DNA of 64,000 bases from NCBI GenBank assembly GCA_963931925.1, contig OZ007583.1, positions 14,263,117-14,327,116 on the forward strand, read 5' to 3'. The notes under the pieces were generated by a model that saw only the letters and a list, made by a program, of their open reading frames with translations, was not told the DNA's origin and ran no database searches. This document shows, piece after piece, positions 1,812 to 64,000 of the stretch. This DNA is from Onchidella celtica. Its lineage: Eukaryota > Mollusca > Gastropoda > Systellommatophora > Onchidiidae. How positions within the stretch are numbered: position 1 is the stretch's first letter; the number at the start of each line of letters is the position of its first letter. A program made the translations under genes and the position numbers.

Positions 1812-1816
1812 GAATA

Positions 1817-21132: not shown

Positions 21133-21153
21133 TCATCCCCCACCCCAAAAAAA
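21133..21153 (-). promoter_or_regulatory. Polypurine tract of element B
   Basis: On the minus strand, a T run is followed by GGGGTGGGGGATGA directly against the LTR. This is the primer site for plus-strand DNA synthesis. The same tract is at 29011-29024 and 62343-62356. Confidence 0.85.
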
Positions 21154-24341: not shown

Positions 24342-24342
24342 C

Positions 24343-24355
24343 TGGGGGCTCGTCC
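24343..24355 (+). promoter_or_regulatory. Primer-binding site, tRNA-Pro type (element A)
   Basis: TGGGGGCTCGTCC begins one base after the LTR. It is complementary to the 3' end of tRNA-Pro including CCA, the same primer as is used by murine leukaemia virus; the match here covers the first 13 bases. It primes minus-strand DNA synthesis. Confidence 0.85.
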
Positions 24356-30144: not shown

Positions 30145-30149
30145 TGCTC

Positions 30150-32917
30150 ATCGTCTCCCGATGATGGCGACGTCATCATGTCCCGAAGAACATCAGTTGG
30201 GCCCCTAGGACTACGACCATACATCATTTCAAACGGCGAGAATCCCGTTGACTCCTGCCGTCACTCTCTGTACGCGAATAACACTGCAGGGATATATCTA
30301 TCCCAATCTTTAGGGCGATCAGCAGCTATCTTACGCAGCATCGACTTTAACGTCGAGTTCAATCTCTCGCACATGCCATTAGCCTGCGGATGATAAGGGG
30401 TGGTAGTGATGGGTTGTATGCTGAATAAGCGGAACAATTCCTTCATCATCTCCGACGTAAATTGTGCGCCCCTATCAGACAGAATTTGCTCTGGTATTCC
30501 TACCCTAGCGAAAATTGCAAACAACGCTTCCGCGACTGCCTCAGACGTAATGGTCCGCAGAGGGAGCGCCTCTGGCCATCTCGTAGCATTACATATGACC
30601 GTTAAGAAAAATCGATTCCCCCTATCGGTCGCTGGGTGAATGGGGCCAACAAGGGCTATCGAAACCTTTTTAAACGGTTCCGAGACAGTGGGGATCTTCT
30701 GAAGAGGAGCCTGGGGTGTACGCCCCTTATGCGTCGTCTTTTGGCACGCACTGCACGTCTTACAATAGACTTGTACATCTCTGTGGATCGATGGCCAGTA
30801 AAAATTTTTAAGAACCCTTTCTTTGGTTCTAGCTATCCCCATATGACCCGCTAATGGGACATCGTGTGCCAAATGCAATACTGTTGCGATCAGCAACGCT
30901 GGCACAACGACCTGCTTTAAAATGGAGGCCACCATTACATACTTACGGAACAGAATGCCCGCCTGAACAACAAAGGAAGACGAGCCGTTCTTATATTTCC
31001 TCGTTTTCTCGGTTCGCGCTTCCCTAAAACATGGGTTTAATGATGGGTCCTCCCTTTGTAATCTCGCCAAGCGCTCTGGCGTGATATCTAGGTTGACCGC
31101 TGGCGTCGCCAAAGGTCTAATCTTATCTTTATCAGCTACCTGTCGACGTGTTTCGACCGCGGCGCAAAAGTCAATACCTTTTGATTGCGACCATGCTTGC
31201 ACGTTCTCATCGGAAGGGGAAACTACCCGTGATACATTCCCAATGATGAGCTGGGCGCCTGGAAAACAACCAACGACTGCTTCGACTTCCCCGCTAAGGA
31301 AAGGTGTATCTATCACTATTCTTGCCATGGGTAATTTCTCAATGGCCCCCGAAAATTGGATGCACGGGACAGTCTCACCTGTAAGCTGTGAATCCCGAAT
31401 GCAGTCTCTATGCACTCCCACAACGGTAGATCCTGTATCTCGTAAAACCGAGACCGGTTCGTCCCCAACAAACCCCGGATAAACCCTAAGACCACCTCCT
31501 GTATGACATGAATTTATAACGGGGATCTTTCTCCCACAAGGTAAAACACCGGAAGATAATAACTTCTCACAACTGGAACACTTAGAATACTGTCCGCCTC
31601 CGTTGTCCGATGTAACACACGCAGCCGCATGATGAAATTTATTAGGGGAACATGGACTGGAGCTACTGTCCACGTTCGCCGCTATCCTACCTGCAGGGCA
31701 ATTCACGCTGATGTGATCTGCTCTTCCGCAGTTCCAACACTTCGCGGCCCTACACTCGCGTGAAAAGTGACCCACGCGTCCGCAAGTCCAACACTCCGCT
31801 CCCTGTGCTGCACTAGGCCTGGGTCCCCGTGACCCATCGCGACCGGAACTAAAGTCCCTATGCCGTCGGTCATCGGCAAAGGTCACAAATCGCCCCCGGC
31901 CATTACCGCGACCTAGCCCTCCTGCTCGGTCAAACTTACCGGATCCATATGCAGGTGATTGGTGATAGCCCCTACGCTGCCCCTGGGCTTGCCCACTATA
32001 GGCACCACGCTGACGCGACCTGTCCTTAAGTCCTGCCGGCGACCCCTCAACCACGGCGACGTACCCAGCATCTTGGACGTACGCCCTGGCGACTGGTTTG
32101 GACGGATGTGCCGTACGGTATGCTTCCGCCAAATTAGACGCCTCCTGCACCGTCGCGGGTTCGTTCTCTTTCAGGAAAGCCACCAGATCTTTATGGCACG
32201 ACGCGTACAGCTGGTCACGGATCATTAGGTCTTTTAATTTAGTAAAATCCGCGCCAACATGCGCCAAGTCTACCCAGTTCGCGAAATATTCCGTTAATCT
32301 CGCGACGAAGGCAGCAAAGTCCTCCCTGCTATCAGCACGTGCTCGCCTAAACTGCTCCCGGAAATATTCCTCGGTACACGCAAATCGGCGAAGCAGCAAA
32401 GCCTTCAGCTTATCGTAATCTTGCACGTCTTCGCGCTGTAGCTCTTTAAAGTAGGTTAACGCTCGTCCCTGCAATAGAGAGGCCAGGTACGTGGACCATA
32501 ATTCCTTATTTTCCCCCCATTGCAATTGTGCGTTCAGTTCGAACCTGTAAAGGAAGGCGTCTATGTCGTCCTTCCGGTCGTCGAACGTAGGGAGCTTAAT
32601 CCGAACACCACCTTTATTGTGTACCTGCCGCTCAACTGTTTCTGTTGGCGCATTCTTATTGATTTCCAACTCAGCGATTCTTATTCGCGCCTCTCTCTCT
32701 CCTGTTGCTTATCCCTAGCCTCTATCTCCCGCTCTTGGGCTTCTATCTCCTTTAACTTTAACTCCCTTTCCTGCTCCTGAGCCTCTTTTTCTCGCCCTCT
32801 ATCCTTAGCACGCTCGTCGCGCAAATCCGCCTGCTGTTCTTTAATCCAGCCGCGTAGCTCTTCTCCCTCAAGGCCAAGTTCCTTACCCAACTTCATTAGT
32901 TGTTGGAGTTCCGCCAT
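30150..32917 (-). pseudogene. Element B: gag, protease, integrase
   Basis: Begins MAELQQLMKLGKELGLEG at 32917. The N-terminal coiled-coil frame stops near 32681 and the protein continues one frame over, so gag has a frameshift in the GA-rich stretch near 32685. Then capsid, two zinc knuckles (CWTCGRVGHFSREC, CWNCGRADHISVNC), protease LRDTGSTVVGVH, integrase H2C2 finger, and the integrase core with ILSDRGAQFTS and NGMCERLNS. The first catalytic Asp is replaced by Ala: codon 30654-30656 reads GCC in SIALVGP, whereas A has GAC. A TGA stop falls in frame at 30261-30263, just after LFAYRE. The frame continues past it to the TSD of element A at 30145. Confidence 0.9.
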
Positions 32918-33859
32918 TTCACAGATTTATGGTTACGGTATATATTATGAAAACGGCTAACCTGTCGGTATGATCACTAACGACACGACCAGAGACCTGA
33001 TATCACACCAGATATAACAATACCCAATTGTCTCAAATACAATTCAGAAATTTACCTACTTCCTAACTAATTCTATATTTATAAAATGTATAGCACTATT
33101 AATTATAAAAAAGAGTAGAAAAGAAAAGAATAAGGAAATTTAGTAGAAGGACCACACGTACGTCAAGGACAACGAACCAGACTAGGACAAAGACCTAAAA
33201 AAGAAAATATAATGGAAAAAAAAATGCAACCTAACTACGCCGATTACACTACACGGTACAAACAAGAACAGAGTCTGAAAAAAAAGAACGTATCTACAGA
33301 CAGGGAAGAAAGAGGGACAAGAGAATACGTCTTCCTGCAGAACAGAGAAGATATCGACGCTACAACTAAACAAAAATACAGGTCCCTATAGAACTGTTCA
33401 CTGTGATGAACGCGGTTCCTAGATTAGCCCACCTCCCTAAGAGGATAAACTACGCTCACCACAGCAAACCCGCTCCACCGCCCGTATAATCGATTACGAC
33501 AAAAACAGAAAAACAGCGGAAAAAGACAGAAGAACAGGCAGCCCTCAATCCAGGGTACAAAATTTCAGTTTCACTTAACTTTCAAATTTTGAGTTTAACT
33601 CCTCCCCTTAATCGGAGCTCTGGCTGCTTGTCTCCTCAGGCTGCACGCACACACACTGTCTCTCTGAAAGTTTAAGTACACATTAGTACATATTTATAGC
33701 AATACATGCATCAATACATATTCATCAATATACATAAATCATATCATCATGAAATTTCCATTCATCCCACGAACAAAGACAACAGCACGAATTCCTAGCA
33801 CAACAGAAAAACAACTACATATAACGAATACACAATGTCAAAATGACCACAGGTAAACA
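32918..33859 (-). other. Leader of element B
   Basis: Non-coding, homologous to the leader of A. No long frame. Confidence 0.7.
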
Positions 33860-33872
33860 GGACGAGCCCCCA
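33860..33872 (-). promoter_or_regulatory. Primer-binding site, tRNA-Pro type (element B)
   Basis: The minus strand reads TGGGGGCTCGTCC one base from the 5' LTR, identical to element A. Confidence 0.85.
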
Positions 33873-33873
33873 G

Positions 33874-35103
33874 TGTCACAAATCCCAGACTGGGAGATGT
33901 AATAAGTTATGACAGGACAACAATCACGAACAAACAAGTTTAACACTTAACAGAACAATCCATCAGACTCACACATTTATTAAACATAATTATACAGATA
34001 ATAGCGCAATTACATACATTATATTATTGAAATTAACTGCCGTACAACGGCCTTATTCTCACACACACTCTCCCTCGGATCCACAACCCGGTAGTTACTC
34101 CTAAAGGCACTTGGGCCTCAGCCTCTCCCCTCAGGGTCTTAATAGCACATTAATAATTCACTGGCACCGCAGTCTCTCAATATCACCTTCCTATTGTCAT
34201 ACACCTTAGCATTCCCCTAGCACCTCAGCAGGGCAATAACACATTATCATTTCAATAGCCCCTCAACATGGCAATAATACATTATTAGTTCCTAGCCCAT
34301 CAACATGGCAATAGGACATTATCACATTCACGCTCATATCTACGTCCCTGTCCGTGGCCTGACTGCCACGACTTTATGTGCCTCTACTGTCCTGCACTGA
34401 CAGCCTCACTTCTGGCCTATGTGTGGCCTCCGGCCCTATGCTGGCCTATCACCGTAGGCGGCGCTCTTTGGCCCGACCTCGGCACCTACAAGAATAACAT
34501 TACATTGGTATAATGCCATACCATTTCTATTCACTCCACCTCTCCTTACAACCCATGAAGCGTACACACACTAGTTCACCTTTCACTCACCACACATCTT
34601 ACGGTAACACACCTCCATCGGAGTACACAATACTCACTCGTGCTACAAATCCATGAACTCACTTTCATCTATCGCTCATGGCGCACATTGCTATATCCAA
34701 TATCAAGGACTTCCACATTCCTCACATATACTTATTTACATCATGGTAATAGACGAATATAATATAATACATCAATCATAATTATCAATCAACGTTCTAC
34801 CTACCAGTCATCACTGGAAAAACTCTCTCACTGGTCTCTCGACTGCTCCCCCTATGTCCGCCCGCTGGGCTCTTACTAGCGTCCGTTCAGTAGGACCTTC
34901 TAACTTGCAGTGATAGTAATACAGCGCTTTCGCCTCATTCAGACCCCCACCACTCATAACATGCACGCTTTCCTTACTTGTCTTCGTGCGTTAATTTTAC
35001 TCTCTTCCTTTCACGTCTTTCCCTACCTGTCTGCCGTGAGCCCTTCTTACTCTACACCCGCTCTGTAGCAATCCCCTTAATTGCACTCACTCCACTCGTG
35101 ACA
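33874..35103 (-). repeat. 5' LTR of element B
   Basis: 1230 bp, same length as the 3' LTR at 19903-21132, about six differences by eye. Followed by CAAAG. Confidence 0.95.
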
Positions 35104-36645: not shown

Positions 36646-36712
36646 ATGGACTTGAAAATTATGATGTTTTTCCTCCAAGGTATCATTCTCTCTTATATTG
36701 CATTATCTTCAG
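36646..36712 (+). CDS. Ig + H-type lectin protein, paralogue 2: signal-peptide exon
   Basis: ATG followed by 22 codons, MDLKIMMFFLQGIILSYIAL then SS, a typical short secretion signal, ending in G|GTAAGT, a strong splice donor in phase 1. The main lectin exon at 49785 opens with a phase-1 acceptor (TATTCAG|CTGAC), and joining the two gives Ala at the junction, a natural signal-peptidase site (SSA-DF). No other acceptor with a fitting exon was seen between them. The link over 13 kb is an inference; the phase and the function of the two halves agree. Confidence 0.65.
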
Positions 36713-36810
36713 GTAAGTATACAAATTACTCAACTTTCTCTTCATCTCCTGCAATCAAGCTATTCTCATACATGGAGGCCTGTTCTTCTTGTGACGATTT
36801 TGTATGTAAG

Positions 36811-37050
36811 AGTGTATGTATGTATGTATGTATGTATGTATTTATGTATGTATGTATGTATGTATGTATGTATGTATGTATGTATGTATGTATGTATGTA
36901 TGTATGTATGTATGTATATATGTATGTATGTATGTGTGTGTGTATGTATGTATGTATGTATGTATGTATGTATGTATGTATGTATGTATGTATGTATGTA
37001 TGTATGTATGTATGTATGTATGTATGTATGTATGTATGTATGTATGTATG
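36811..37050. repeat. (TATG)n microsatellite array 1
   Basis: About 240 bp of TATG repeats with few interruptions. The Val-Cys-Met-Tyr and His-Thr-Tyr-Ile frames across it are artefacts. It directly abuts a LINE copy at 37051. Confidence 0.95.
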
Positions 37051-38243
37051 AACTGATGAAACGTCTTACGCGGGGTATAAAACAAATGAAAAAGGTATAA
37101 TTACGAAAGAGTCTAAAGTAAATTGGACGAAATCAACATGGGTACATTTGAACGAAATGTGTGCAAGAATAAACCTAAAGCTACATGACAGAAGCAACAA
37201 ATAGGCCTTCGAACTCCACATAGAGGAAGAGATATCAACTGTCATCGAAGATGCCACATGATTTTATGCGGCGTACAAAAAACTTCAGCTAAACGAAATC
37301 ACCGAAAATTGGAAAGCCAAGAAATCTCAGGGACGTATTGTACGGGAATCCCCCAATATCGATCACTCTCTCTCCAACTCATTCTGGACAAACCACAACA
37401 TTCCGGACAAAATAAGAACTTTTATCACTAAGGGACGATTACAATTACTTCCATGTGAAAGCTTAATGAGTCTTTACTATCCTAATGTGTATTTCAAAAA
37501 ATGTAAATTTTGTAACCATCCTACAGAAACTGCCTCACATACTTTAAATGGATGCACAAAATTTAAGACCATGTATCAGAAGCGACACAACAGAATTGTT
37601 AACTTTATAACAAACAAAATTAAAGGAAACAGCATCAGCAATAAAATTGTCCTTATGGATATGCCCCTCACGCCAGCAATTTTTCAGGCTAGTAATATAT
37701 CCTTCAACCACTCACAAAACAGACCGGATATCACAGTCATAGACCCAGATAATAAGGCAGTAAAGCTTGTTGAAATATCTATCCCGTTCGATGCCTTCAT
37801 TGACAGGTGCTATCAGTCGAAATTTGATAAATACTATCCATTGTGTCTGGAAATTAATTCACTAAGATATCATTGTGAAATAATTCTTTTGATCTTTGGT
37901 TCATTAGGTCACGTCCACAAGAGAGTAAAAAGTGGACTATGTAAACTTGGCCTCAGTAACACCGAAGCGAAATTTATAGCAAAATACTGCAGTGTTAGCA
38001 GTGGCATAGGCTCTTTTAACGTATGGAAGCTGAGAGCAAGAAAGTAGGACAGAGGTAGTTTAGCATAAAGTGAAATAATATTGTATTAACTCTAATATTT
38101 TACCAGAGAAGAAGATTTGGAGAGCAAGAATGAAAGGGACCATAGCATGTATTTCCGCTTCTGTACAATGTGAAGTATTGTTTTTCCAATAAGATATTGT
38201 ACGGGTAAATTTGACATGTATTTCATGGAAATAAACAAATTTG

Positions 38244-38244
<1 letters not shown>
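37051..38244 (+). mobile_element. RLE-type LINE copy i (5'-truncated)
   Basis: Homologous to 46638-47502 at roughly 95% by eye. It encodes the C-terminal part of an R2/R4/NeSL-like protein: a zinc knuckle, CKFCNHPTETASHTLNGC, and a restriction-like endonuclease with RPDITVID and VEISIPFDAF, then a tail ending NVWKLRARK at 38047. In-frame stops at 37201-37203 (TAG) and about 37258 (TGA) are absent from copy iii. The 3' UTR ends with AATAAACAAATTTGAT at 38244, directly followed by (ATGT)n. (TATG)n lies on both sides. Confidence 0.85.
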
Positions 38245-38274
<30 letters not shown>

Positions 38275-38385
38275 TGTATGTATGTATGTATGTATGTATG
38301 TATGTATGTATGTATGTATGTATGTATGTATGTATGTATGTATGTATGTATGTCTGTATGTTTGTGTGTATGTATGTATGTATGT
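38245..38385. repeat. (TATG)n microsatellite array 2
   Basis: About 140 bp of TATG repeats between the 3' end of LINE copy i and the 5' region of the next LINE. Confidence 0.95.
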
Positions 38386-41300
38386 CAGGTCAGAAAAATC
38401 TGCTACTGGTAACATGTAATCCAGTACAACCTGTTTCATGAACTGGTACGCTATCATGGTATCAGTGGGCGTGCACCTGTCGGTGCAAACGGCCGGGGCG
38501 GAGGAGGTTTCATTAACCCAACGGCCACATGCTAGGGCACAATGTGACCCTCAGTACTTGAGTCCTTCATATTGGCCCCCGGTAGCGGTGTGGTCATAGG
38601 CTTGTTTGCCTAAATCACAGACGAAGAATTGAGCAAACTTCCCGGACGCAGCTTCGAAGCTGGCGGCAGCAGGCCAGTGTTTGATTGATAGGGCAGATGG
38701 CAATATACCGTCACTCTGGCCTGGATATCGTGACACAGAGCATCCACCAGTATTGGTGTTCTTTGGTTTGGGTCTTTCACCCTAGTCAGTTGGGACTGCG
38801 AGGCTGTGGAGTAGCCTACAGGCAGCCGGTCAGGCAATATGACTGTCCCTCTGGCATCCTCCTGCACCTGGATACATTTCCAGTCGTCTTGACCCTGTCT
38901 TGCCATTTGGATAAGTTGTGTCCAGGCGAGAGAGTGAGTCTGATGTTTGCGCAGCTCTTTGTCACTAAAAACAAATTCTTTGCGCCAGTCTTAACACTCA
39001 CCTCGTCTTCTTTCATCTTTGTCTCGTCTTCTTTCCTCTCAAAATTCCAACGGCGATGGGCGAGTGCGGTGGCAGCAGGTTTGGATAGACTGGAAGCTGT
39101 TAGCACAGACCAACACGTTGGTGGCTGTGGGCTATGGTCGCTTCATCGTCGATTGAAGTGGAGGCGTGGGGAGGCAGCACCCACAGTAGCTGAGCAGCCT
39201 TATTTAAGGATAGCACTGCTCACCTCAACTGAGGAAGGGGCTAGAAAAGGTGCCCTAAAGAAAGCCCACTTCACATCACCCTGACTGGTATACCGCGACC
39301 AGTGGGGATCCCTTTTTGCAGTCGAAACAAAAAGAAATTCAGCTTACTCAGGCTAGGAGCCTGGAATGTACGCACACTACAGGACAACTCAAACAACCCG
39401 GAACGACGCACTGCACTTATGGCCATTGAGCTCAGCAGGTACAACCTGGACATAGTGGCACTCAGTGAGACCAGACTCCCTGATAGTGGCCAACTCAAAG
39501 AGTTCAGTGGTGGATACACCTTCTTCTGGAAAGGCAAGGGTGCAGTCGAACCGAGACAGCATGGTGTTGGGTTTGCAATTAAAAATGACCTTGTCAGAAA
39601 CTTGCAGTCCATGCCAATTGAAATAAATGACAGGCTAATGACACTCAGGATCCCAGTTGGGAAAAGCCAGTCAGCCACCCTCATTAGCGCATATGCGCCC
39701 ACCATGACAAACCCAGATGAAGCCAAAGACAAGTTCTATTCTGATCTAGAATCTGTCATATGCTCTGTCCCGGCAGCTGATAAGCTGATTCTCTTGGGGG
39801 ACTTCAATGCTAGGGTTGGCTCCGAAATCTCAGCGTGGCCAAATGTTTTGGGCCCTCATGGAGTTGGTTCATGCAATAACAATGGGTTGCGCTTAATTAC
39901 TCTGTGCGCTGAATTTGGCCTGTTCATTACCAACACAAATTTTAGTCTCCCCGTGACAAACAGAACGTTATGGATGCATCCCCGCTCAAAGCATTGGCAT
40001 CTCATAGACTATGTCATTGTGAGGAAGACTGACAGAAAGGATGTCCTTGTAACAAAGGCGATGTGTGGTGCCGAGTGTGGAACTGAAGACAGACTCATTG
40101 TTTGCAAGCTCAGACTAACATTGAGGCGCAATAGACGCCCTCAAGGGAAAGCGCCACCTAAACGCCTAAATGTTTCAAAACTCTGCTCAGCTGAGAAACA
40201 CAGCGAGCTCTCATCAGAACTCTCCTCAAAATTGGATTGCGTGACATTTGACCCTGAGAACATTGAACAGAGCTGGACTGACCTAAATACGAATGTACAC
40301 TCTTGCGCCAGCAGCACAGTTGGTTTTCCTGTCCGCAAACACCAGGACTGGTTCAATGATAATTATAATGAAATCAAAGTGCTCATCGAAGAAAAAAATA
40401 GTCTCATCCAAGCTCACTGCAGTGACCCCTCTTCCACAGCAAAAGCTGACGCACTGCGTGCACGTAAGGGTGTACTCCAGAAGAAGCTGAGGAAAATGAA
40501 AAATGACTGGCTTGAAGAGCGAGTAAGAGAAACTCAGAAATATGCCGACACAAACAACACTAGAAAGTTCTTTGAGAGCCTCCGAGCTGTGTTTGGACCA
40601 TCCCGCTCTGGCACTACGCCACTTCTTGCGTCAGATGGTTCAACACGCATTGTTGAATTGAATGCCATAATTCAGCGTTGGGCAGAACATTTCGGAGGTG
40701 TGCTAAATCGGCCATCAAATATAAATACTGAGTCCATTGACCGCCTCCCTCAGACTCCTATTAATGCAGCTCTTGCCAAGCCATTCACAGCAAATGAGAC
40801 CCGAACTGCCACAAATCAGATGTCCTTTAACAAATCACCAGGCGTGGATTCAATTCCTGCTGAGGTGTATGCCTTCGGTGGAGAAAAGCTTATTGAAAGG
40901 TTGACCGAGTTGTTCAATCATATGTTGAAAGCAGGGAAGCTGCCACAGGACTTCAAAGATGCTTCAATCATCCATCTGTACAAAAACAAAGGGGACAGCC
41001 AAGTCTGTGACAACCATCGGGGAATCTCTCTACTTTCAATTGCTGGCAAAATATTGGCAAGAATGCTTCTGAATCGCCTTCTTGATCACCTCTCGTCAAA
41101 TGACTTGCTTCCCGAGAGCCAATGTGGCTTTCGTAAAGAGAGGGGAACGGCGGATATGATTTTTGCTGCCAGACAGATTCAGGAAAAATGCAAGGAACAA
41201 AATAAAGCGCTGTATATCACATTTGTTGACCTCAAAGCTTTTGACACAGTGTGTCGTGAAGGCCTCTGGAAAATCTTGGCGAAGTTTGGGTGTCCACCCG

Positions 41301-42668
41301 AATTCATCACAATAGTGCGCCAGTTTCATGATGGCATGCAAGCTGCAGTCAAAAGCAACGGCAGTGTTTCAGAGCCCTTTCCTGTCACAAATGGGGTAAA
41401 ACAGGGTTGTGTCTTAGCCCCAACTCTGTTCAGCATCATGTTCTCTGCAATGCTACAAGAAGCCTTTAGCTCTCCTCCTCAAGGGGTAAGCATCAACTAC
41501 CGAACTGATGGCAGTCTATTCAACCTCAGGAGACTTCAGGCAAAAACCAAAACCAAAAGTACTCAAGTCTGTGACCTACTATTTGCTGATGATTGTGCAC
41601 TTCTGGCACACGATGAGGATAGCATGCAAAACTGTGTTGATAAGTTCTCTAGTGCCTGTGACAACTTTGGCCTCACAATAAGCACAAAGAAGACGGAAGT
41701 GCTCCATCAGCCTACTCCAGACGACAAGTATGCTGTGACCCCAAATATCAAAGTCCATGACAGTCTTCTGAAGGTGTCGGAGAACTTCACCTATCTTGGC
41801 AGTACACTGTCTTCCGCGGCTCGTGTTGATACTGAAATTCTCTCAAGAATCAGCAAAGCCAGCTCTGCATTTGGCAGGCTTCGAATGGATGTCGCCGGCA
41901 TTCGCACAGACACTAAGCTGAAAGTGTACAATGCTGTGGTCCTTCCCACCCTACTCTATGGGGCTGAAACCTGGACAGTGTACCAATCGCATGCCAGAAA
42001 GCTAAATCACTTTCATCTGGCCTGCCTTAGAAAGATCCTAAGGATCAAATGGCAGGATAAAATTCCAGACACTGAGGTCCTTAATCGTGCCAAGTAATTG
42101 AGCATCTTCTGCCACCTGAAAAAAATTCAGCTACGTTGGGCAGGACATGTTGTCAGAATGCCCGACTCAACACTCCCTAAGCAAATCTTCTTCTCTGAGC
42201 TCCCCAATGGAACGAGGAATGTTGGGGCCCCAAAGAGACGTTACAAAGACACTCTCAAGCAATCACTGAAGGCCTTTGCCATTGATGTGAGTGAGTGGGA
42301 AAAGCTCTTGCTTGATCCTGCCAATTGGAGGGCGGCCCTTACCAGAGGCAGCAAAGCATGGGAAGCTGACAGAGTCCAGCAGGCTATCAAAAAAAAAGAG
42401 AACGGCGCAAGAAAAGGCCCAGTGGTAGTGAACCAACGGAGCACTCTTGTCATTTATGCGGAAGGGTCTGCAGGGCAAAAATAGGACTTATCAGTCACAT
42501 GAGAAGCCATAAGTCATGAAAGAACAGTCTTTCCATTCTGTCCTCTGTGTCCTTTAGTTCTCTTTATTGTCCATGTGTTGAAATTCTCAACAATTTCTGT
42601 TCTTTATTCCTCTGGTGTTGTTAAGGTCATCATCATACCTGATGGACGAACTATTACAAACTATTATT
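38386..42668 (+). mobile_element. Endonuclease-RT LINE, near full length
   Basis: Single-ORF LINE with about 0.9 kb of GC-richer 5' UTR, an endonuclease/RT frame (39302-42484), a short 3' UTR and an end reading ATTACAAACTATTATT before a TATG array. Its 3' UTR is short (about 150 bp). It lies between two TATG arrays, as do the RLE LINEs around it. Clade not assigned; the C-terminal C2H2 tail and single ORF are typical of mollusc RTE/L2-type LINEs. Confidence 0.85.
39302..42520 (+). pseudogene. LINE endonuclease/reverse transcriptase
   Basis: About 1060 codons. The EEP (AP-like) endonuclease shows WNVRTLQD, ALSETRLPD, LLGDFNARVG and DYVIV. The usual T-D-H-R-L motif reads TEDRL, so the catalytic His is lost. 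RT shows NKSPGVDSIPAEV, DNHRGISLLSIAGKILARM, AGFRKERGTADM-type block (CGFRKERGTADM), motif A FVDLKAFDTV (one residue shorter than the common VDLTKAFD), motif B NGVKQGCVLAPTLFS and motif C LLFADDCALL near 41580. A stop, TAA, at 42095-42097 splits off the WAGHVVRM tail. Near 42440 a frameshift removes the terminal C2H2 finger, which is readable in the next frame as CHLCGRVC...GLISHMRSH and ends at 42518. At least four lesions, so inactive. Confidence 0.85.
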
Positions 42669-42735
42669 ATGTACGTATGTATGTATGTATGTATGTATGT
42701 ATGTATGTATGTATGTATATATGTATATATGTGTG
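42669..42735. repeat. (TATG)n microsatellite array 3
   Basis: Short TATG array with TATA variants, directly after the LINE 3' end. Confidence 0.9.
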
Positions 42736-43097
42736 TACACAGGGTCTGGAAGAAAAGATATCATTTAATCTAATTCATCTCTAACAATATTTTGTCATAT
42801 ACAGTAGCTTTCAGTGGTGCATTCACTCCCTTTTTTCTTCGTTTTTTATCAGTCAAAAGGCTTTTATCAATGCAATGCATGTTGGTAATTCCATACACTA
42901 TATTACTACTATGCATTCTCATTACAATGCATGTTGGTTACTCCATACACTATATTACTATTATACAGTTTCATTGTATTACACTATTTAGGTTGTTGGT
43001 ATGCTTGTAAGCTGATATATTATGTTGAATATGTGATTATGCAATTGGATTGTTCATTGCATGTGAAAAATCATATAGTCAATAAAATTCTCGAAGT
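42736..43097 (+). mobile_element. Probable LINE 3'-end fragment
   Basis: No coding motif. It ends AATAAAATTCTCGAAG immediately before a TATG array, similar in form to the 3' ends at 38244 and 43697. A unit of about 50 bp starting CAATGCATGTTGGT is duplicated in tandem at about 42872 and 42925. Confidence 0.4.
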
Positions 43098-43130
43098 ATG
43101 TAGGTATGTATGTATGTATGTATGTATGAT
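43098..43130. repeat. (TATG)n microsatellite array 4
   Basis: Eight TATG-type units. Confidence 0.9.
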
Positions 43131-43698
43131 TATATATTATGATTATATATATTTTGATAACACCCAAGAAAATTATGACACCACTGCCAACAGGCCTGAT
43201 ATTACAATTATTGATCGTGAACACAAAAGAGTATGGCTTGTAGAGGTTGCAGTCTGTTTTGATGCCCATATTGAAAACTGCTACCAAAATAAATTTAATA
43301 AATATTTCCCCCTCAGTATGGAGATAAACAAAATGGGATTTAACACCCGTGTAATTGTTTTGATTGTTGGCAGTCTGGGCCACATTCATAAAAATTTTTC
43401 TAAAGGATTGTTCCAACTAAATATCAGAAAATAGGAAATCCGGGGTCTCTGCAAATACTTAAGCAATAGTGCAATATTCTCATCCCATCACATATGGAAA
43501 CGCCGTTGTAAATCCCATCCTCTATAATCTATGTACTGTGTCATTACCCTTTTATATCATTATTTCAATATTCTTCATGAGTCTTGTTTCCTGTTTACCT
43601 GCATCCAGCATGCTACCATCCATTTTGATGTATTTCTCATCATCATTTTTCTATGATGTTACATTACTTGTATTGTATTATAGAGAAATAAAGATATT
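43131..43698 (+). mobile_element. RLE-type LINE copy ii, diverged 3' fragment
   Basis: 43170-43434 encodes RPDITIIDREHKRVWLVEVA, then QNKFNKYFPLSMEINKMGF and VGSLGHIHK, a diverged match to the endonuclease region of copies i and iii. The Arg-Pro-Asp and the following acidic residues are kept. It ends at TAG 43432-43434. The 3' UTR ends AATAAAGATATTGAT and then ATGTATGT. A different subfamily from copies i and iii, judging by the low identity. Confidence 0.75.
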
Positions 43699-43759
43699 GA
43701 TATGTATGTCAATATAGGTGAGCAGAAGCTCGGGGGGAGGCAGAGCACTAGGATAACAG

Positions 43760-44303
43760 TTTTAAGAGAAAATAAGTATTAGGCGGACGAAGGTTGTAGT
43801 GCCTAGTAAGTGCTCAAGAAAGCAAAGCGGGAGTGAAAAAAGGAAGAAAGAAAAATGATCAAGATGGGACTAGAACCCGCGACCTCTGCTACGGCACCCG
43901 TCGCCTTGCCAAGAAGAAAACAGATAAAACTCGGAGGCATACATCTTGTATTCGTTGTCCTAGGTGTTCGTATTGTCCAATGCCAGGCGGGTGAAAAAGA
44001 GAGAACAGGGAGGGGAGAGGTGACACGGGTGGGTTGGGTCCCAGCGAACGAATACTCAAGTCAGCAAAAAACACCGTGAAACAGTTCGGCCACGATCGTC
44101 TCTTTTTATAGAGACGGAGTGGCCGAACGGTTAAGCGATCTGTTTTCTTCTTGGCAAGGCGACGGGTGCCGTAGCAGAGGTCGCGGGTTCTAGTCTCATC
44201 TTGATCATTTTTCTTTCTTCCTTCTTTCACTCCCGCTTTGCTTTCTTGAGCACTTACTAGGCACTACAACCTTCGTCCGCCTAATACTTATTTTCTCTTA
44301 AAA
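43760..44303. repeat. Large inverted repeat with tRNA-like arms (SINE-derived)
   Basis: Arms 43760-43925 and 44138-44303 are near-perfect reverse complements of 166 bp around a 212-bp centre. The right arm with its upstream sequence reads like a tRNA gene: TGGCCGAACGG (A box, 44119) and GCGGGTTCTAGTC (B box, near 44183), as in Leu/Ser tRNAs. The left arm carries the complementary B box. This fits two tRNA-derived SINEs inserted head to head, or one foldback. A working tRNA is unlikely because no acceptor stem forms. Confidence 0.7.
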
Positions 44304-44320
44304 ATGTATGTATGTATGTA
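44304..44320. repeat. (ATGT)n tract before LINE copy iii
   Basis: Four ATGT units between the inverted repeat and the LINE 5' end. Confidence 0.8.
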
Positions 44321-47300
44321 TCCCTGTTCCGGTTCAAGATGGCGGATAGGCCAGCAGGGCTTTGTGCTTCTGTGCACGATCCGTGGTAACTGCCCCCGTT
44401 AACGTAGTTATGGTCTGAAAAGGGTTGGGCCTGTTTACCAGGCTCAAAATGTGCGTGAAGGATGCTGTGAAAAGTGGTAAAATTCGATGGATTATAGCTG
44501 GAGTAGAAAACAACAGGAAAGCAGACATCCAACATGGCGACAACACTCTTCAAAACCCCGTGAGTTGGTCTAACTTTCATGATCCCCAGCTTTGGGATGA
44601 GTTTGTAGCTGCAGAGAAAACTTTTAGGAATTCTCTTAGCACCAAGCCAATAACACTTAGAAATAGATATTGTCATGCCGACCCCAGCAAGTGGTGGAAG
44701 CTTGTGTCATTGCTGTGCAGCATATTTCATAGGGGCAATGGATATCAACACACCAGGCCAGACGGCCAGCCGTTCAGTATTTGTTTTCTGAAATATGTAA
44801 AGAGAATACTTCTGAAATTCCCTGTGACAATCCCAGAGGAATTCGAAGAAGCTGAGAACAACCCAGATAATGTACCACCTAATCAGAGCAAGTCGCTACT
44901 TAACAATATTCATTTCATGTTGTCTTTTGTGAAAGTTCATATTCAGCCATGTTTCAGTAAGGGAAAACCCCACCTCAATAACAACACGGACAAGTCAAAG
45001 GTATCTAAAGAGGAGATCACCACTCTGTGGCAAACCAATCAAACTAAAGCCATTGAAATTATTAACAACGAAGGGAAAATGCCGAAATCTGCTTCGTGCT
45101 CAATAAATATAGACACCATAGAACAATATTTTAAAGAGCGCTGTCAGCGATCCCTTAATACCATCCAGATACCAACATGGCAAAATGATGTCATCACCCC
45201 AGATCCCGATTGGGCACCGTCCACCGACCCATTTAATGATGACGAAATTAAGACAGTTATTAAAAGCCTACCAACTAAACGTTCCCCAGGAGCAGATGGG
45301 GTCACATACGATACCATCAAACAAAACATAAACAAGCTCACGCCCGTGCTTAGAGCAATTTTCAACACTTGCCTCGCCCACCGTCGCGTTCCGCCCGAAT
45401 GGAAACACGGGATAATAAAACTTGTTCCGAAAAAGAACGGTAAGCCAGAGAACATTGAAGACTGGCGACCAATTTCTTTGCTGCTGACCTCTTACAAGAT
45501 ATTTTTAAAAGCAATTCAAGCACGACATGTAAAATGGATCGTAGAAACACAAAGATTATCATCTCGGCAGAAAGGATCCATGCCAAGAAACGGGCTACAA
45601 GAACATGTATTTAAAAACAACGATATCTGACTTTCTGCATACAATTTCCAAACTCTTCGTCGGATTCGTCGACATAAAAGAGGCCTTCGGAAGCATCGAC
45701 CACGAATTTATGCTCAATGAAATGAGCGCAGCCGGATACCCTAAACCATTTATAGATATCACAAGAGACATATACAATGGATCAACATTCCAAGTAATGA
45801 CCGCCCGTGCAATAACGCAACCCATCAAGCGTAGTAGAGGAATTATCCAAGGCTGCCCTTGGTCAGTGATAGCCTTCGAACAGGACATAGATAAATGGCT
45901 TCGATGGATAGAGCACTCTTACGACCCAGTGCACATCCCAAACCCCGTTCAAGGCTATGTAGATGATGTCAACTTCACTGCAACGACAGAAGAAGCCCTA
46001 AAGGAAATGGCATTAAAAACTAACTCTTTTTTAAACACCAGCGGAATGGAAATTAAACACCGTAAATGTACCATTTTACATGGACAAAGAACGGGAAACA
46101 ACTGGAAGAGAAACACAACAACAGGATATAACCAGATAACAGTACAAGGCAGCCCATTGCCCATGTATGAAAAAGAACAATGTTATACGTATCTAGGATA
46201 CGACTTCAACATCTCAAATAGTGCCGATAAACAGCAAGTGACGTCACTGATTAGAGACTACGAAAAGTCACTCAATAACATTGACAAAACGCTGTTACCA
46301 CCAAGCGCAAAAATTGAGGCTGTCAACATAATGTGCAACCAAAAGATAAACTTCTATTATCCAAACCTCACCTTCACTGAAAAGGATATAAATCACCTTG
46401 AAGATATTATTGCCAATATGGTCAGGGAGTGGCTAAATCTTAACAACTCTGCCACTAGAGCCTTCATGTTTACACCAAAGTCACCCGGAGGACTAGGTCT
46501 ACTCAGCCCACGTGTAATGTACTATGCGAAACACCTGGCATTCTACCTGTCGGTATTGAACAGCGACGACCCACAGGTTAGAGAAACAGCGAGAAAATCA
46601 TTAAAACTGCACATGGACAAACGCAAGGTTGCAAACACGACTGATGAAACGTCTTTCGCGAGATATAAAACAAATGAAAAAGGTATAATCAGGAAAGAGT
46701 CTAAAGTAAACTGGACGAGATCAACATGGGTACATGTGAACGAAATATGTGCTAGAATGAACCTAAAGCTACATGACAGAAACAACAAATATGCCTTCGA
46801 ACTCCACATAGATGAAGAGATATCAACTGTCATCGAAGATGCCACACGATTTTATGCGGCGTACAAAAAACTTCAGCTAAACGAAATCACCGAAAGTTGG
46901 AAAGCCAAGAAATCTCAGGGACGTATTGTACGGGAATCCCCCAATATCGATCACTCTCTCTCCAACTCATTCTGGACAAACCACAACATTCCGGACAAAA
47001 TAAGAACTTTTATCACTAAGGGACGATTACAATTACTTCCATGTGAAAGCTTAATGAGTCTTTACTATCCTACTGTGTATTCCAAAAAATGTAAACTTTG
47101 TAACCATCCTACAGAAACTGCCTCACATATTTTAAATGGATGCACAACATTCAAGACCATGTATCAGAAGCGACACAATAGAATTGTTAACTTTATAACA
47201 AACAAAATTAAAGGAAACAGCATCAACAATAAAATTGTCCTTATGGATACGCCCCTCACGCCAGCAATTTTTCAGTCTAGTAATATATCCTTCAACCACT

Positions 47301-47502
47301 CACAAAACAGACCGGATATCACAGTCATAGACCCAGATAATAAGGCAGTAAAGCTTGTTGAAATATCTACCCCATTCGATGCCTTCATTGACAGGTGCTA
47401 TCAGTCGAAATTTGATAAATACTATCCCTTGTGTCTGGAAATTAATTCACTAGGATATCATTGTGAAATAATTCTTTTGATCTTTGGTTCATTAGGTCAC
47501 GT
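44321..47502 (+). mobile_element. RLE-type LINE copy iii (R2/R4/NeSL/HERO-like), 3'-truncated
   Basis: Starts CCCTGTTCCGGTTCAAGATGG right after an (ATGT)n tract and appears 5'-complete or nearly so. It encodes RT and the start of a restriction-like endonuclease, and is cut after LGHV at 47502, where it leaves homology with copy i. No 3' UTR or terminal microsatellite follows. Confidence 0.85.
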
Positions 47503-47512
47503 GATTCGATAA
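44425..47512 (+). pseudogene. RLE-LINE reverse transcriptase/endonuclease
   Basis: Frame 1 (44425-45630) has a long N-terminal region, then RT blocks KRSPGADGVTYDTIK, PPEWKHGIIKLVPKK and EDWRPISLLLTSYK, and LSSRQKGSMPRNGLQEHVF. A one-base shift near 45605 moves the rest into frame 2 (45605-47512): motif A VDIKEAFGSIDHE, motif B RGIIQGCPWSVIAFEQD, motif C GYVDDVNF near 45955, thumb, zinc knuckle CKLCNHPTETASHILNGC near 47093, and RPDITVID with VEISTPFDAF. Absence of an N-terminal AP-type endonuclease, with knuckle plus RPD endonuclease at the C-terminus, defines the RLE class. The frameshift and loss of the C-terminal tail make it inactive. Clade within the class is not determined. Confidence 0.85.
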
Positions 47513-48137
47513 TGTCGAAAATAATACTACTGCATACCGTGTCGGCTTTCTTTGAAGTTTATATTTGTTCTGTGATTTTGCCCAATTGCACACGACCCAT
47601 GTCGAATGGTGTCGAATGAAACTCTTGCCACGATCTAAATTATCACTGAAATATTTTTTTGGTGCAAGCGAAATCCTATGTTTATCTATGTTTATGTACA
47701 TACATGGAACGCGAGTCCAATTGGACTAATATGAAAAAGAAAACTAGGTTCAATTGCCCAGTAAACAGCAAAGCTAGTAAACATGTGGTAGGAAAAGAGT
47801 TCTTATAGAATTAATCTTCTCTTCTGATAAGGTAGCTGTATTGAGTCCTAGGGGTGTCAAGTCTGTGATGAGAGCCACCCCCACCCCCACCCCGACTGTG
47901 TTAGTCAAACGAGAAAACAAAAGTAGGTGGGGGAAAATTTCAAAACTTAATCATTCAATATTGTGCCCTTGATGAGTTTTTTTTTTTTTATAAGTAAAGC
48001 CAAGGAAGAGAAAATTAAAGATGGTTGTAAGAATATCAAGCCTTAAATTCACGGTCAAATTCACAATAGCAGTTACAAATTATGCAGATGATATATAAAG
48101 AACCAATTAATCCATCAATCCATCAATCAGTACGAAT
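47513..48137. other. Unassigned intronic sequence
   Basis: No gene, no clear repeat. A C-rich stretch near 47877-47893 and a T run near 47980. Confidence 0.4.
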
Positions 48138-48320
48138 AAGGTGAAAGGTGCTCGCCTGTCATGCCCAAGGTACCGGGTTCGGATCCCAGTCGCTGCAGGC
48201 ATGTTGGAATTTCGGGATAAGGACGGATTCTTGGACATACTGAAAACATGCAAAATTTGAGGAGAGCGTGTAGACCACAAAAACTGTGGAGAACGTGAGG
48301 ATTTTGCTGGATTTTACCAT
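48138..48320 (+). mobile_element. tRNA-derived SINE-like sequence
   Basis: GGTGCTCGCCTGTCATGCCC followed about 25 bp on by CCGGGTTCGGATCCC. This resembles a pol III A region and B box (GGTTCGAxxCC) as found at the head of tRNA-derived SINEs. The tail and target duplication were not resolved. Confidence 0.5.
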
Positions 48321-48819
48321 TGAATTTGGCACACCCGGTGGAGGAATGTTGAACAGAAAGATTCAGATGGTTTAAAAAAACAAACAAATTACTCAGAAAA
48401 TGGCACTGCTTTCTATTCTCCTCAACAAAAGAATACAAAGGGAAATTTCAATAAAGAAAAGTTAGGATTGAAAAATAGTATCAGTGCAATTCTTCGCGCT
48501 ATTATAAAACGATCACCGCCTTTAATAATGATATACAACAATGTATTTATTCTAATGGTTCCCTTTATATAACTGATTAGTTTAATATAGAATCGATCAG
48601 GGTGAGGAAAAATATTCAATATTATCCAGAAATTGCCGCATACGTCTAATGTATTCTATCATTGTAATAGAAATGCCAGATATAAAGGCAGCCACACCCC
48701 AGGAACTCTCTTTTTTACAAAAGAATGGTCATTTCTTGAAACGATTTTGAGAATTTGAAGACTCATTGCGGGAGGTATCAAACAAGAGGACATCAGCGAG
48801 GATAACTGTATACATTCTA
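48321..48819. other. Unassigned intronic sequence
   Basis: No coding motif or repeat identified. Confidence 0.4.
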
Positions 48820-48994
48820 AAGCTGTGTTCTCATGTGTACGGAAACGGAAACGGCAAACAATCCATCGTACAGTAAAAAGAAAGAGTGTTTCCATGTGTA
48901 CGGAAACGGCGTGCGGAAACAGTATTTCTATTTCACAACTTGACGGGTTTTTGACGTTTCCCTTGCCGTTTCCGTACACATGAGAACCCAGCTT
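48820..48994. mobile_element. MITE with 29-bp terminal inverted repeats
   Basis: Left end AAGCTGTGTTCTCATGTGTA (continuing CGGAAACGG) and right end 48966-48994 are inverted copies with one mismatch by eye. A third copy of the core, CATGTGTACGGAAACGG, lies inside near 48893. About 175 bp, no coding capacity. The target duplication may be TAA/TTA but is palindromic and thus uncertain. Confidence 0.7.
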
Positions 48995-49330
48995 AAGTCC
49001 GTTCACAATATAGCCGTCGACATAATTATTTCCACTGGCCGGAAAGTTTGGGGACCTGTTTATGAAGAGTTGAGAAGGACATGGTATGAGGGAGAAAAGG
49101 GCACATAATAATTATGTACTGGTGTTCTTAGCTGTTCTGTCAGTGGGGCAGGACTGTGTTACAGCCATTATGCATTTAAAATACGATAAAGTTGTCGAAG
49201 ACATCTACTTAATAAAATCAAAACCTGTTGCAGTTGATCTATAATTCAAGATTGATTTGATCCAAGTGAGCGCCCAATCTGCCTTACTGTAGGGTTAAAA
49301 CGTATGTAAGACTTTACTACTTCATCAGTT
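48995..49330. other. Unassigned intronic sequence
   Basis: No feature recognised. Confidence 0.4.
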
Positions 49331-49337
49331 CTCTCCT

Positions 49338-49395
<58 letters not shown>

Positions 49396-49557
49396 TCACT
49401 CTCTCTCTGTCTCTCTCTCTGTGTCTCTCTCTGCCCCTTTCTGTGTCTCTCTCTCCAACTCTCTCCCTCGCTCTCTGTATCTCTCTGTGTCTCTCGCTGT
49501 CTCTCTCCAACACCCTCTCTCTCTGTGAGTCTCTATCTCTCTTTGTCTTTGTCCCTA

Positions 49558-49591
<34 letters not shown>

Positions 49592-49640
49592 TGTGCCTCT
49601 CTCTCTCTCTTTCTTTCTCTCTGACTCTCTCTGTGTCGTT
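49331..49640. repeat. CT/CA microsatellite cluster
   Basis: CT runs, a (CA)n run at about 49349-49394 and a (GT)n run at about 49575-49593. The frames over it are low-complexity artefacts. Confidence 0.95.
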
Positions 49641-49784
49641 TCCCCCCTTATTTCAAGTCACTCTGTCAAAGTATATACTCCAACAAAATTGGTTTAATTG
49701 TATGTCTGTTTATTTTCTGTGTTGATTTCCAATGTTACATTGCCTCAATATATATGATCTTTCATTCTCAATTCCTGTATTCAG

Positions 49785-50644
49785 CTGACTTTGTCCAGAT
49801 ACAAGGCAATCCTGAGATGTTCAACCCAGGACTGACCAAAACAATGACACTCAGATGTTCTATTCATCGTGACCAGCCTCCAGGAAACAGTGGACAGTCA
49901 GATCTTTCAAGGCGTGTCTCGTCCAATATCGACATTAAAAAGGTCGTATCTATGGCTATAACTCGAATCCGGGGTGTCAAGTCGAAGCCCGAAATTGTGG
50001 CTAACGTGTCATCGCTTTACCCGACAAAATCTAACCTCGACAGCAAGTATATAGAAGGGGCAATCGAAGATGAAGGCTCCAACTCAAAAGAGCTCGGCTA
50101 TATACAACTTAGGTGGGACCATCCTCTTGAAGAACAATCTGGAATTTACGTTTGCGACGTCAATGTTCTCAACTCCGATCTACATAGGCAAATGGTGTCT
50201 GTAGCAGTGAATATGAGCCAACGGAGTCAAACAATTGAGGATTTTGGTGTTAACTTGATGCAGCTGAAGAGCGACTTCAGAATGTATAAGAACAAGACAA
50301 GAATTCAATTAAATGAGGCCCATAAAGAGATTGCAGATTTGAGAAAAGTTACACAAAAACTGATTAGGATAGTTGGCGATGGGCGGGGTCAGATGCTGCA
50401 AAAAGGTGAAATGGTCTGCGATTTCTGTGGTTATAAAACTATAACTTTTCCTCAGACTTATAACAGTCCCCCTGAACTTGTCATAGGGATTAGTTACATA
50501 CATGTAGACGGAAGCAACGACTATGGTCCAGATGTTAAGCCCATTACCAGTGCCATAAAAACCACAGGTTTCAATGTGGCATGTTGTCACGTCAAATGCT
50601 CTACCTGCAAAATTGTATGGATAGCATTTGAAAAGTATTTGTAA
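49785..50644 (+). CDS. Ig + H-type lectin protein, paralogue 2: main exon
   Basis: Joined to the exon at 36646 this gives a 308-residue secreted protein. Ig-like domain about residues 24-165: first Cys at 47 (MTLRCSIHR), second at 146 (GIYVCDVNVL), preceded by LGYIQLRWDHPLEEQSG, the pattern of gastropod FREP/VIgL Ig domains. Heptad-like charged helix about 172-218, likely oligomerising. H-type lectin domain about 231-308: ITFPQTYNSPPELVIGISYI, TTGFNVACC, and the terminal KIVWIAF; this family binds N-acetylgalactosamine-type glycans in snail agglutinins and discoidin. Extra paired cysteines (CDFC, CCxxxCxxC) are shared in part with paralogue 1. Frame open throughout; TAA at 50642-50644. The acceptor at 49784 fixes the start, as the upstream ATG at 49754 is intronic. 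Role in pathogen recognition is inferred from domain relatives. Confidence 0.85.
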
Positions 50645-61349: not shown

Positions 61350-61352
61350 TAT

Positions 61353-62000
61353 GTGGGTAGAGGTGTTCAGAGACCTGAAGAAACAAAAATTGACAAGTTA
61401 GTAGGGTTGCAAATCCCTAAAACAAAGAAACAAGTCAGAAGCTTAGTGGGAATTTTAAATTATTACAGAAAGTTCATTCCAAATTTTTCCTCCTTGTCAT
61501 CTTCTCTTACTGACCTTACGAAGAAGGGACAACCCGATAAGGTCCAGTGGACGTCTGAATGTCAGACATCATTTGATAATTTGGTGACAGCATTATCATC
61601 GTCACCCATTTTGATATTACCCGATTTTCGATCTAATTTTATCCTCAGAGCGGATGCGTCGGACTCTGGTGTCGGCGCTTGTCTTCTACAGGAGAAGAAC
61701 GAATGTCTCCATCCTGTATGTTATGTCAGTAGGAAGTTATTGCAGAGAGAAAGAAAGTATTCTGTGATAGAGCGTGAGTGTCTTGCCATTGTCTGGTCCG
61801 TCCAGAAACTAGGACGTTATCTCATGGGACGAGAATTTTGTATCCAGACAGACCACAAGCCACTGACATTTTTGTCGAAGAATCGTTCGTCCAGCCCACG
61901 CTCGTCTAGATGGGCATTGGCTTTGCAGCCGTATACCTTCGTTATTCAACCAATTCCAGGAACCAGCAATCATATCGCCGACTACCTTAGTCGAGCCTAG
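61353..62000 (+). pseudogene. Element C: RNase H and RT remnant
   Basis: About 215 codons: RT connection (KKQVRSLVGILNYYRKFIPN), RNase H with LRADASDSGVGACLLQEK, YSVIERECLAIVW, IQTDHKPLTFL, ending HIADYLSRA. Thr to Ala change before the first catalytic Asp compared with A and B; the Asp is kept. The frame is open, but the polymerase active site and all upstream parts are missing. Confidence 0.9.
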
Positions 62001-62356
62001 GGGAAGATTTCAGGAGCTTATACATCGGAGGACAGGAACATTGACAGGATCTGTGTGAATAAGTCGACTTTAAAATATTGACATTATAAATATGATATGA
62101 AGAATGGTTGATAGGTTGAATGGTTTTTGATTCTGTATTAAGTATTGTGATTAGTTAGCTATTCATGATGTGACACATATATGCATATTGCAGGCCATAT
62201 TGATCCCCATATTTTCCCCTGATTTCGGTATTTTATATACTAGGGGAGCTGCTAGGTCAGTTTTTTTAGTGTAGGTAGTGCTCACGCTCACTCGTTGACA
62301 GTCGTCTTGATGCGATTTGAAATTAATTGCATTAATTTTTTTGGGGTGGGGGATGA

Positions 62357-63279
62357 TGTCACGAGTGGAGTGAGTGCAATTAAGGGGATTGCTACAGAGC
62401 GGGTGTAGAATAAGAAGAGCTCACGACAGACGGATAGGAAAAGACGTGAAAGGGGAAGAGTAAAAATAACTCATGCAGACAAGTGGGAAAAGCTTGCGTG
62501 TATGAGTGGTGTGGAAGTCTGAATGAGGCGAAAGCGCTGGATTACTATCAATGCAAGTTAGAAGGTCCTACGGATCGGACCTGTGAATGAGAGCCCATCG
62601 GGCGGACATAAAGGGGAAGCAGTCGAGAAGACTAGTGAGAGTCTTTCCAGTTATGACTGGTGTCGGGGACGGGCCGCAGAGCCACCTCGATGAGCACAGG
62701 GGATAGGCCAGCATAGGGCCGGAGGCCACACATAGGCCGGAAGTGAGACTGTCAGTGTAGGACAGTGGAGGCACATAAAGTCGTAGCAGTCAGGTCACGG
62801 ACAGGGACGTAGATATGAGAGTGAATGAGATACTATATTGTTGCCATGTTGATAGGCTAGTGAACTGATATTATGTTGTTTCCATGTTGATGGCTATGGA
62901 AATAATAATGTGTTATTGCCCTGCTGAGGTGCTAGGGGAGTGCTACGGTGTATGACAATAGGAAGGTGATGTTGAGAGACTGCGGTGCCAGTGAATCATT
63001 AATGTACTATTAAGACCCTGAGGGGAGAGGCTGAGGCCGAAGTGCCTTTAGGAGTAACTACCGGATTGTGGATCCGGAGGGAGAGTGTGTGTGAGAATAA
63101 GGCCGTTGTACGGCAGTTCATTTCAATGATATAATGTATGTAATTGCGCTATTATATGTATAATTAGGTTTAATAAATGTGTGAGTCTGATGGATTGTTT
63201 TGTTAAGTGTTAAACTTGTTTGTTCGTGATTGTCGTCCTGTCATAAACTATTACATCTCCCAGTCTGGGATTTGTGACA
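62357..63279 (+). repeat. 3' LTR of element C
   Basis: 923 bp, TGTCAC...GTGACA. It carries a segment near 62420-62500 that resembles the B-type LTR, and the GTTGCCATGTTGATAGGC unit once or twice rather than about three times as in the solo LTR at 6080. AATAAA near 63172. Confidence 0.9.
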
Positions 63280-64000
63280 CAGCGGTCATGACCTATCTGG
63301 GAGAGGCTAAGATCTACAGGATAGCTGAAAAGCTTTATCTCTTCACAAGACTTTGTTCATATAATACAATTTTTGAGAATTTCACCAATGTGATACAATG
63401 TGAAACTTTTTAACTGCATTAAGAAATTACAGAAACGTGTACTCAAATTAATAGTGAAGGGAGAAAAGTGGCTGTTGTCATGCCAATGTGCCGAAAAGCC
63501 CAACCTCAAACAAATACGATTAGTAGATCTATCACTCCGAATGTTAAAATGTTTCATGATGTTTTAATTTTTCACTAAAAGTAGAAGTGAGTTCCTCAGT
63601 ACTAATTCCGTATTAAACAACAGATAAAACTGCCGTGTGGACGCTGAACAACACTGCCCAACACTGACTGGACTAAGTCTTCCTACCACTGTAATGCTGG
63701 CTGTGGCATTGAATAATTGAGCGGAAACTGGGAAGCATTGACAATTGGATATTTCTAGAGAGTGAGGAAAGAGATTAAGGGCTGCCACTTACACATACAT
63801 GTATAAGGAAGCCTAGATCTAGTGTTTTATTGGACATTTTACCAAACTATCACTGTATGATCTAATATCATGTCTCCAGTCTAACTTAACTAGTGACTAG
63901 CTTGTGTGTCCTGAACTCACCTCGTCTTTTCTTTCACAGAGGCATCTCGTTTTCACAGTTAGAGGTTGAATGTCTGTCTTTGTTCTGTTCTGTTTGATGA
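63280..64000. other. Unassigned sequence
   Basis: No gene or repeat recognised. Two frames of 66-75 codons on the minus strand have no motif. Confidence 0.4.

Follow-up and report, generated by a model that had tools for sequence, protein, structure and literature searches.

What is encoded by the long open reading frame at positions 49785 to 50644 (+ strand) of this stretch of the Onchidella celtica genome, and does its product represent a new class of gastropod VIgL proteins? We analyzed the whole 64,000-nucleotide stretch (the window, C17:14263117-14327116) and searched the 1.14 Gb assembly (43 contigs) to which it belongs; the gene containing this frame is called copy 2, and a related, interrupted gene at the start of the window, copy 1. 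An earlier note on the same DNA had suggested a secreted protein with an Ig-like domain, a coiled coil and an H-type lectin domain, forming a VIgL class not described before. We consider it quite probable that the gene encodes a 308-residue secreted VIgL of the HREP class, in which a signal peptide is followed by a single V-like Ig domain of FREP type, then by a coil and, at the C-terminus, by an H-lectin, and that this protein would act in humoral recognition. The class, however, is not new, since gastropod proteins with Ig-like and H-type lectin domains are already named HREPs in section 2.7 of PMC8878817, citing Gorbushin 2019.

Exon 2 of copy 2 (49785-50644, +) is a single uninterrupted frame running from the splice acceptor to a TAA stop, and comprises an Ig-like domain, a coil and an H-type lectin domain. 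The V-type Ig-like domain covers exon residues 2-145 (49787-50218, +), as indicated by a profile of related genes that matches FREP and CREP-like Ig domains and by weak matches to V domains in the PDB, and the N-terminal region contains the Ig-like signature SGIYVCDV. Its cysteines, Cys25 (49856-49858, +) and Cys124 (50153-50155, +) in exon numbering, correspond to the Cys47 and Cys146 proposed earlier once a 22-residue signal exon is added; their spacing of 99 residues exceeds the IgSF cysteine loop of more than 40 aa given for VIgLs in PMC7588048. The charged helix that had been noticed behind them (50228-50374, +) is present with a heptad pattern (p 0.006 in copy 2 and 0.03 in copy 1, against shuffles of the same segment) and is a probable oligomerizing coil. 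The H-type lectin domain lies at 50399-50641 (+), with the Pfam match to PF09458 at 50435-50629; this match scored 38.5 bits (E 1.3e-9) in the whole product, against a curated cut-off of 24 bits, and reached E 1.2e-10 with the lectin piece alone. Its best PDB match was Helix pomatia agglutinin (HPA; profile E 3.6e-4), and the C-terminus reads VWIAFEKYL, in line with the VWIAF ending reported before. A cysteine-rich loop at 50582-50608 (+) contains Cys267, Cys268, Cys272 and Cys275 (exon numbering). A fibrinogen C-terminal domain (PF00147) had no Pfam match in the copy 2 protein, homologues were absent from the protein collection, viral contigs and prokaryote genomes searched, and the Rfam and tRNA scans were empty. 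AlphaFold2, run with two alignment rows each, gave no confident model for the whole exon (pLDDT 29) or for the Ig alone (pLDDT 34).

The signal peptide proposed for this protein was also supported, but its exon is found 13 kb upstream rather than adjacent to exon 2. In six cluster genes, the region 5' of exon 2 was scanned for exons that combine a start codon, a hydrophobic stretch and a phase-1 donor; repeat peptides with MYVC or CVCV were removed before groups were counted. One group of exons was common to five of the six genes (copy 1, copy 2, L010, L011 and L012), with copy 2 and L010 linked via the other three members and not directly; in L013, the upstream scan found no exon of this group. 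In copy 2, the coding part of this exon 1 (36646-36712, +) comprises the predicted signal peptide MDLKIMMFFLQGIILSYIALSS plus one base, in phase 1, followed by the donor CAG/GTAAGT, whereas in the other four genes the exon is situated 4.6 to about 11 kb 5' of their own exon 2. All donors of the group are CAG/GT and agree with 8-9 of the nine consensus positions. The reverse-complement control yielded groups of at most three genes, the donors of the three-gene groups matching 3-5 of nine positions, and the forward scan contained one further group, of three genes (MEHLCC/MENLCR), with donors matching 3-7 of nine. The putative intron 1 between exons 1 and 2 (36713-49784, +; 13 kb) holds reverse-transcriptase elements at 39419-42097 and 44449-47512 (RVT_1 / Exo_endo_phos matches) as well as microsatellites, and its acceptor tract TTTCATTCTCAATTCCTGTATTCAG showed no differences among four aligned genes. 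The exons would be joined through the junction codon GCT, giving ...ALSSA-DFVQIQ and a total of 308 residues, the length stated in the earlier note. A closer candidate for the signal exon, at 49086-49155, ranked first in hydrophobicity among 17 in the vicinity (near the 95th percentile of shuffles) and had a poor donor (4 of 9). It was rejected because, in three aligned paralogues, the corresponding stretch has lost its start codon, contains a stop, is thrown out of frame by indels or carries a deletion; moreover, the 308 residues and Cys47/Cys146 are incompatible with this exon and compatible with the one at 36646-36712. Copy 2 is thus likely secreted by means of the conserved signal exon. 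Microsatellites that read as MYVC repeats lie close to exon 1, both in copy 2 (window positions 36700-38500) and in L011 and L012, and in L010 the T-rich intron ends, when read through, imitate signal peptides.

The identity of the Ig domain required a comparison within the genome itself. With an E limit of 1, Pfam had no Ig match for the complete copy 2 protein, and the Ig piece matched 'ig' alone (E 0.13); the initial Ig call was thus a good guess, which the standard models do not bear out. Searching the whole genome with the copy 2 protein, we obtained 32 matches with E no higher than 1, from which the 5' piece of copy 1 and 18 further places were fetched (three weak places, one on C9 and two on C16, were left). 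Twelve of the 18, all on C16, are FREP-like, with two Ig domains or parts of them and a coil by eye, and in ten of the twelve a fibrinogen start was seen by eye in the same frame. In two of these FREPs, Pfam found PF00147 (E 1.3e-25 and 1.5e-23) and, in one, a V-set match (E 5e-4) below the cut-off. Another place, L036, combines Ig, coil and Lectin_C (E 1.2e-5) and is CREP-like, and L029 and L044 are further Ig plus H-lectin genes, although the lectin of L044 scored 21.6 bits against the Pfam cut-off of 24. A profile built from the Ig domains of eight members of the copy 2 clade was then applied to 13 further proteins from the assembly, including six of the twelve FREPs, and matched all 13 (FREPs, E 1.1e-11 to 3.3e-6; L036, 3.7e-10; the weakest, L044, 3.3e-4). 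As these proteins had been picked beforehand by the copy 2 or H_lectin searches, the shuffles are the control that counts, and the best of 300 had E 0.038; reversed sequences were absent from the 30 best rows. Motifs of the copy 2 clade recur in the alignment of FREP and CREP-like Ig domains. Set beside the FREP genes from its own genome, copy 2 was thus confirmed, at the level of sequence homology, to join a FREP-type Ig scaffold to an H-type lectin; the part of the earlier Ig assignment that pointed to FREPs stood, while the Pfam models did not recover it.

Other comparisons of the Ig domain reached further afield. An 11-row Ig profile had only weak matches in the PDB (best E 0.0054), the best being nanobodies; by name, 24 of the 26 matches were antibody, nanobody or CD8 chains and two were integrin alpha-5. 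In a side test, 91 Biomphalaria plasma peptides (PMC5433772, Table 1, with one row omitted) were aligned to both copies, and the eight top-ranked of 182 alignments fell in the Ig domain (copy 2 residues 90-132; copy 1 residues 88-113), and came from roughly five different peptides, YVCGANIVNQEGQLEK and SYLQVTR among them. Almost as good were the alignments at ranks 9 and 10, in which a single peptide matched the lectin (p 0.007-0.009). PMC5433772 assigns one of the Ig-like peptides to a protein that it describes as having no Ig fold. As side observations, C16:31.2-37.8 Mb (L031-L035 and L037-L043) forms a large FREP cluster of the two Ig plus coil plus fibrinogen type, with coils from short to hundreds of residues (L043); the CREP-like L036, with its C-type lectin, lies on C4; and L030 (C17:20.84 Mb) has an Ig exon of the same type with no head found in its frame.

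With regard to class, copy 2 holds Ig-like and H-type lectin domains together, as HREPs do, along with a FREP-homologous IgSF domain, a C-terminal lectin domain and a predicted signal peptide, as found in VIgLs. The likeness to the HREPs of Gorbushin 2019 concerns the two-domain combination as described in PMC8878817. FREPs, consisting of one or two IgSF domains, a coiled interceding region and a fibrinogen domain, share with copy 2 the homologous Ig, the coil between the Ig and the C-terminal lectin, and the signal peptide; in contrast to them, copy 2 has an H_lectin head instead of fibrinogen, and its Ig is longer by about 20 residues behind the first cysteine. CREPs (Ig and C-type lectin), GREPs (Ig and galectin) and QREPs (Ig and C1q, a sister class according to PMC10672478) follow the same plan of an exchangeable head but bear other heads. 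What the present data would add to the HREPs is a tandem array, fast protein evolution and the cysteine loop; the excerpts of the literature surveyed, which was not queried for the loop, contain no mention of such a loop or of a tandem HREP array.

The earlier suggestion that the cysteine-rich loop was worth examining proved fruitful. We aligned 19 H-lectins of the genome with HPA residues 32-101, omitting four short places (L020, L021, L022 and L024). Nine sequences (copy 1, copy 2, L009-L013, L023 and L027) form a loop clade in which the cysteine at HPA position 80 is kept, while the TWHNT loop is absent and replaced by one three residues shorter, with the pattern C-x4-C-x2-C in nine of nine. 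Three HREPs (L014, L015 and L018) and three Ig-less H-lectins (L016, L017 and L019) keep the TW, as TWHDT in L014 and L015 and as TWG or TWS in the others, and L025, L029, L044 and L028 have neither the TW nor the C-x4-C-x2-C loop. HPA and copy 2 share the H-type lectin family, the cysteine at the Cys80 position and a similar C-terminal strand (SWISI and VWIAF, respectively), but HPA has neither Ig nor coil. The HPA disulfide links Cys9 and Cys80, and its first loop is long; such a long first loop was seen in L016, L017 and L019 and is absent in the copy 2 clade. In HPA, GalNAc is reportedly contacted by the Trp83-His84 loop and Arg63. Copy 2 does not display this site, having Asp in the Arg63 column, and its clade keeps neither the TWHNT loop nor Arg63. 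Given that the Trp-His loop is lost in the clade, copy 2 probably has a ligand other than GalNAc in its customary binding mode, and the cysteine loop is probably held by a disulfide.

Is copy 2 an isolated gene? At least 19 H_lectin places exist in the genome (two in the window and 17 fetched, each examined). In 12, counting the split copy 1 and L015, whose Ig is partly left, an Ig shares the frame with the lectin, and in seven the frame has no Ig. The protein search added four Ig-linked H-lectins (L027, L028, L029 and L044), and open Ig plus H-lectin frames amount to 13 in the genome, with coils visible by eye. Eight Ig plus H-lectin genes, all on the + strand, are lined up within 236 kb of C17 (14168499-14404961), with relatives at other places of C17 and on five further contigs. 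L014 (C6) shows an apparent signal peptide in frame with its Ig. We also observed that L014, L015 (C6) and L025 (C8) constitute a second HREP subclass, with an in-frame signal peptide and an acidic N-terminal stretch by eye in L014 and L025, and that L016, L017 (C1) and L019 (C2) present a coil-like stretch without a same-frame Ig and are possible head donors. Finally, the coil at L012:2356-3285 contains a duplicated segment whose second half matches copy 2 (163-284) at 78%, versus 66% elsewhere, which hints at exchange between array members.

Copy 1 is not a whole second copy, as a LINE interrupts its exon 2. The 5' part is located directly upstream of the window (C17:14263028-14263111) and the 3' part at 3764-4568 (+; 67% amino acid identity), with the 12-bp target duplication AACAATGACACT at 3764-3775. 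The LINE-type element between them (1736-3763, - strand, extending past the window start) was recognized by RVT_1 matches (E 4.8e-8 and 4.3e-19), the target duplication and a repeat boundary, and it probably includes the repeat at 696-1811. Retroelement pieces at 19901-35103, 61350-63280, 6080-7021 and 696-1811 are near-identical (up to 99.9% over 702 bp), some pairs being inverted, and these are signs of recent activity around the array.

The LINE in copy 1, together with a stop in L028, a far member of the eight-gene array on C17, raises the alternative that the tandem array is decaying and that most of its members, copy 2 included, are functionless relics kept open by recency. Substitution patterns also lend themselves to that explanation: dN/dS over exon 2 ranged from 0.62 to 1.06 in the ten pairwise comparisons among five paralogues (the four clade members at greater distance being left out), with 0.65 for copies 1 and 2 (bootstrap 0.43-0.94), and strong constraint is disfavored because the 0.8 kb 3' flank of these two copies diverges less (15.9%) than their coding sequence (17.6% of aligned bases). 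Nevertheless, the coding sequences differ by two indels, each 6 nt long, whereas the 3' flank has 17, of which 12 are not multiples of three, and random substitution at the copy 1/copy 2 level left the frame open in 0.7% of trials, all of which makes a chance reading frame unlikely. The whole exon 2 is open in six cluster members and two on C7, five signal exons have near-perfect donors, and the loop cysteines are present in nine of nine sequences, so that we regard a relic array as improbable. The frame is guarded while amino acids change almost at the silent-site rate, a pattern compatible with diversifying or relaxed selection alike.

Accepting a working gene, its product might still be a secreted reproductive or mucus H-lectin, comparable to HPA in egg fluid, with a borrowed Ig, serving egg defense and not recognition in the hemolymph. 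Land snail H-type lectins are held to protect eggs (PMC8878817, PMC4795696), yet the Ig partner in copy 2 is that of FREPs, which are described as hemolymph lectins (PMC7588048), and on balance this role seems unlikely to us. A fusion of separate origin that merely resembles the FREP/CREP scaffold would agree with the Pfam results for the Ig and with the HREP lectin halves, which do not group clearly as a single clade (AU p 0.03, in a weak tree). The Ig tree placed the eight clade members in one group (support 99/99) with the deeper forks open, and a single origin of the HREP Ig, with support 48/86, is neither demonstrated nor excluded. Since the Ig profile matches the FREP and CREP-like Ig domains of the same genome far above shuffles, and their motifs agree in the alignment, we hold a separate origin to be very improbable.

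Altogether, the copy 2 product is most likely a secreted multimeric recognition protein of the HREP class. Its frame, domain homologies, conserved signal exon, tandem array and fast evolution are all evident from the sequence; the humoral recognition role is what we infer. HPA is a trimer (PMC5793061) and FREP coils go along with multimer formation (PMC7588048); in copy 2, the coil and the trimer-forming H-lectin fold would join three chains. Clustered in this way, the lectin faces could attach with avidity to surface patterns that repeat, and the Ig ends could engage another target or partner. The outcome might be opsonizing or agglutinating, as proposed for FREPs, and the short cysteine loop in place of the sugar-contacting Trp-His loop would direct the protein to a ligand other than classic GalNAc. 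It is also conceivable, although we would lean slightly against it, that the whole clade uses the H-lectin as a new recognition head, with the Trp-His lost and a C-x4-C-x2-C loop probably stapled by a disulfide, and that its exon, diversifying near-neutrally across the array, provides a repertoire of secreted recognizers that bind proteins or, in any case, not GalNAc.

The at least 19 H_lectin places of this genome contrast with the description, in PMC8878817, of H-type lectins as a family that is not expanded in molluscs. With the ligand loop replaced, the idea that a VIgL head is able to abandon sugar binding can be tested directly. In addition, fibrinogen, C-type lectin and H-type lectin heads are all joined to one Ig scaffold in this genome, and the exchange of heads is therefore traceable within a single species.
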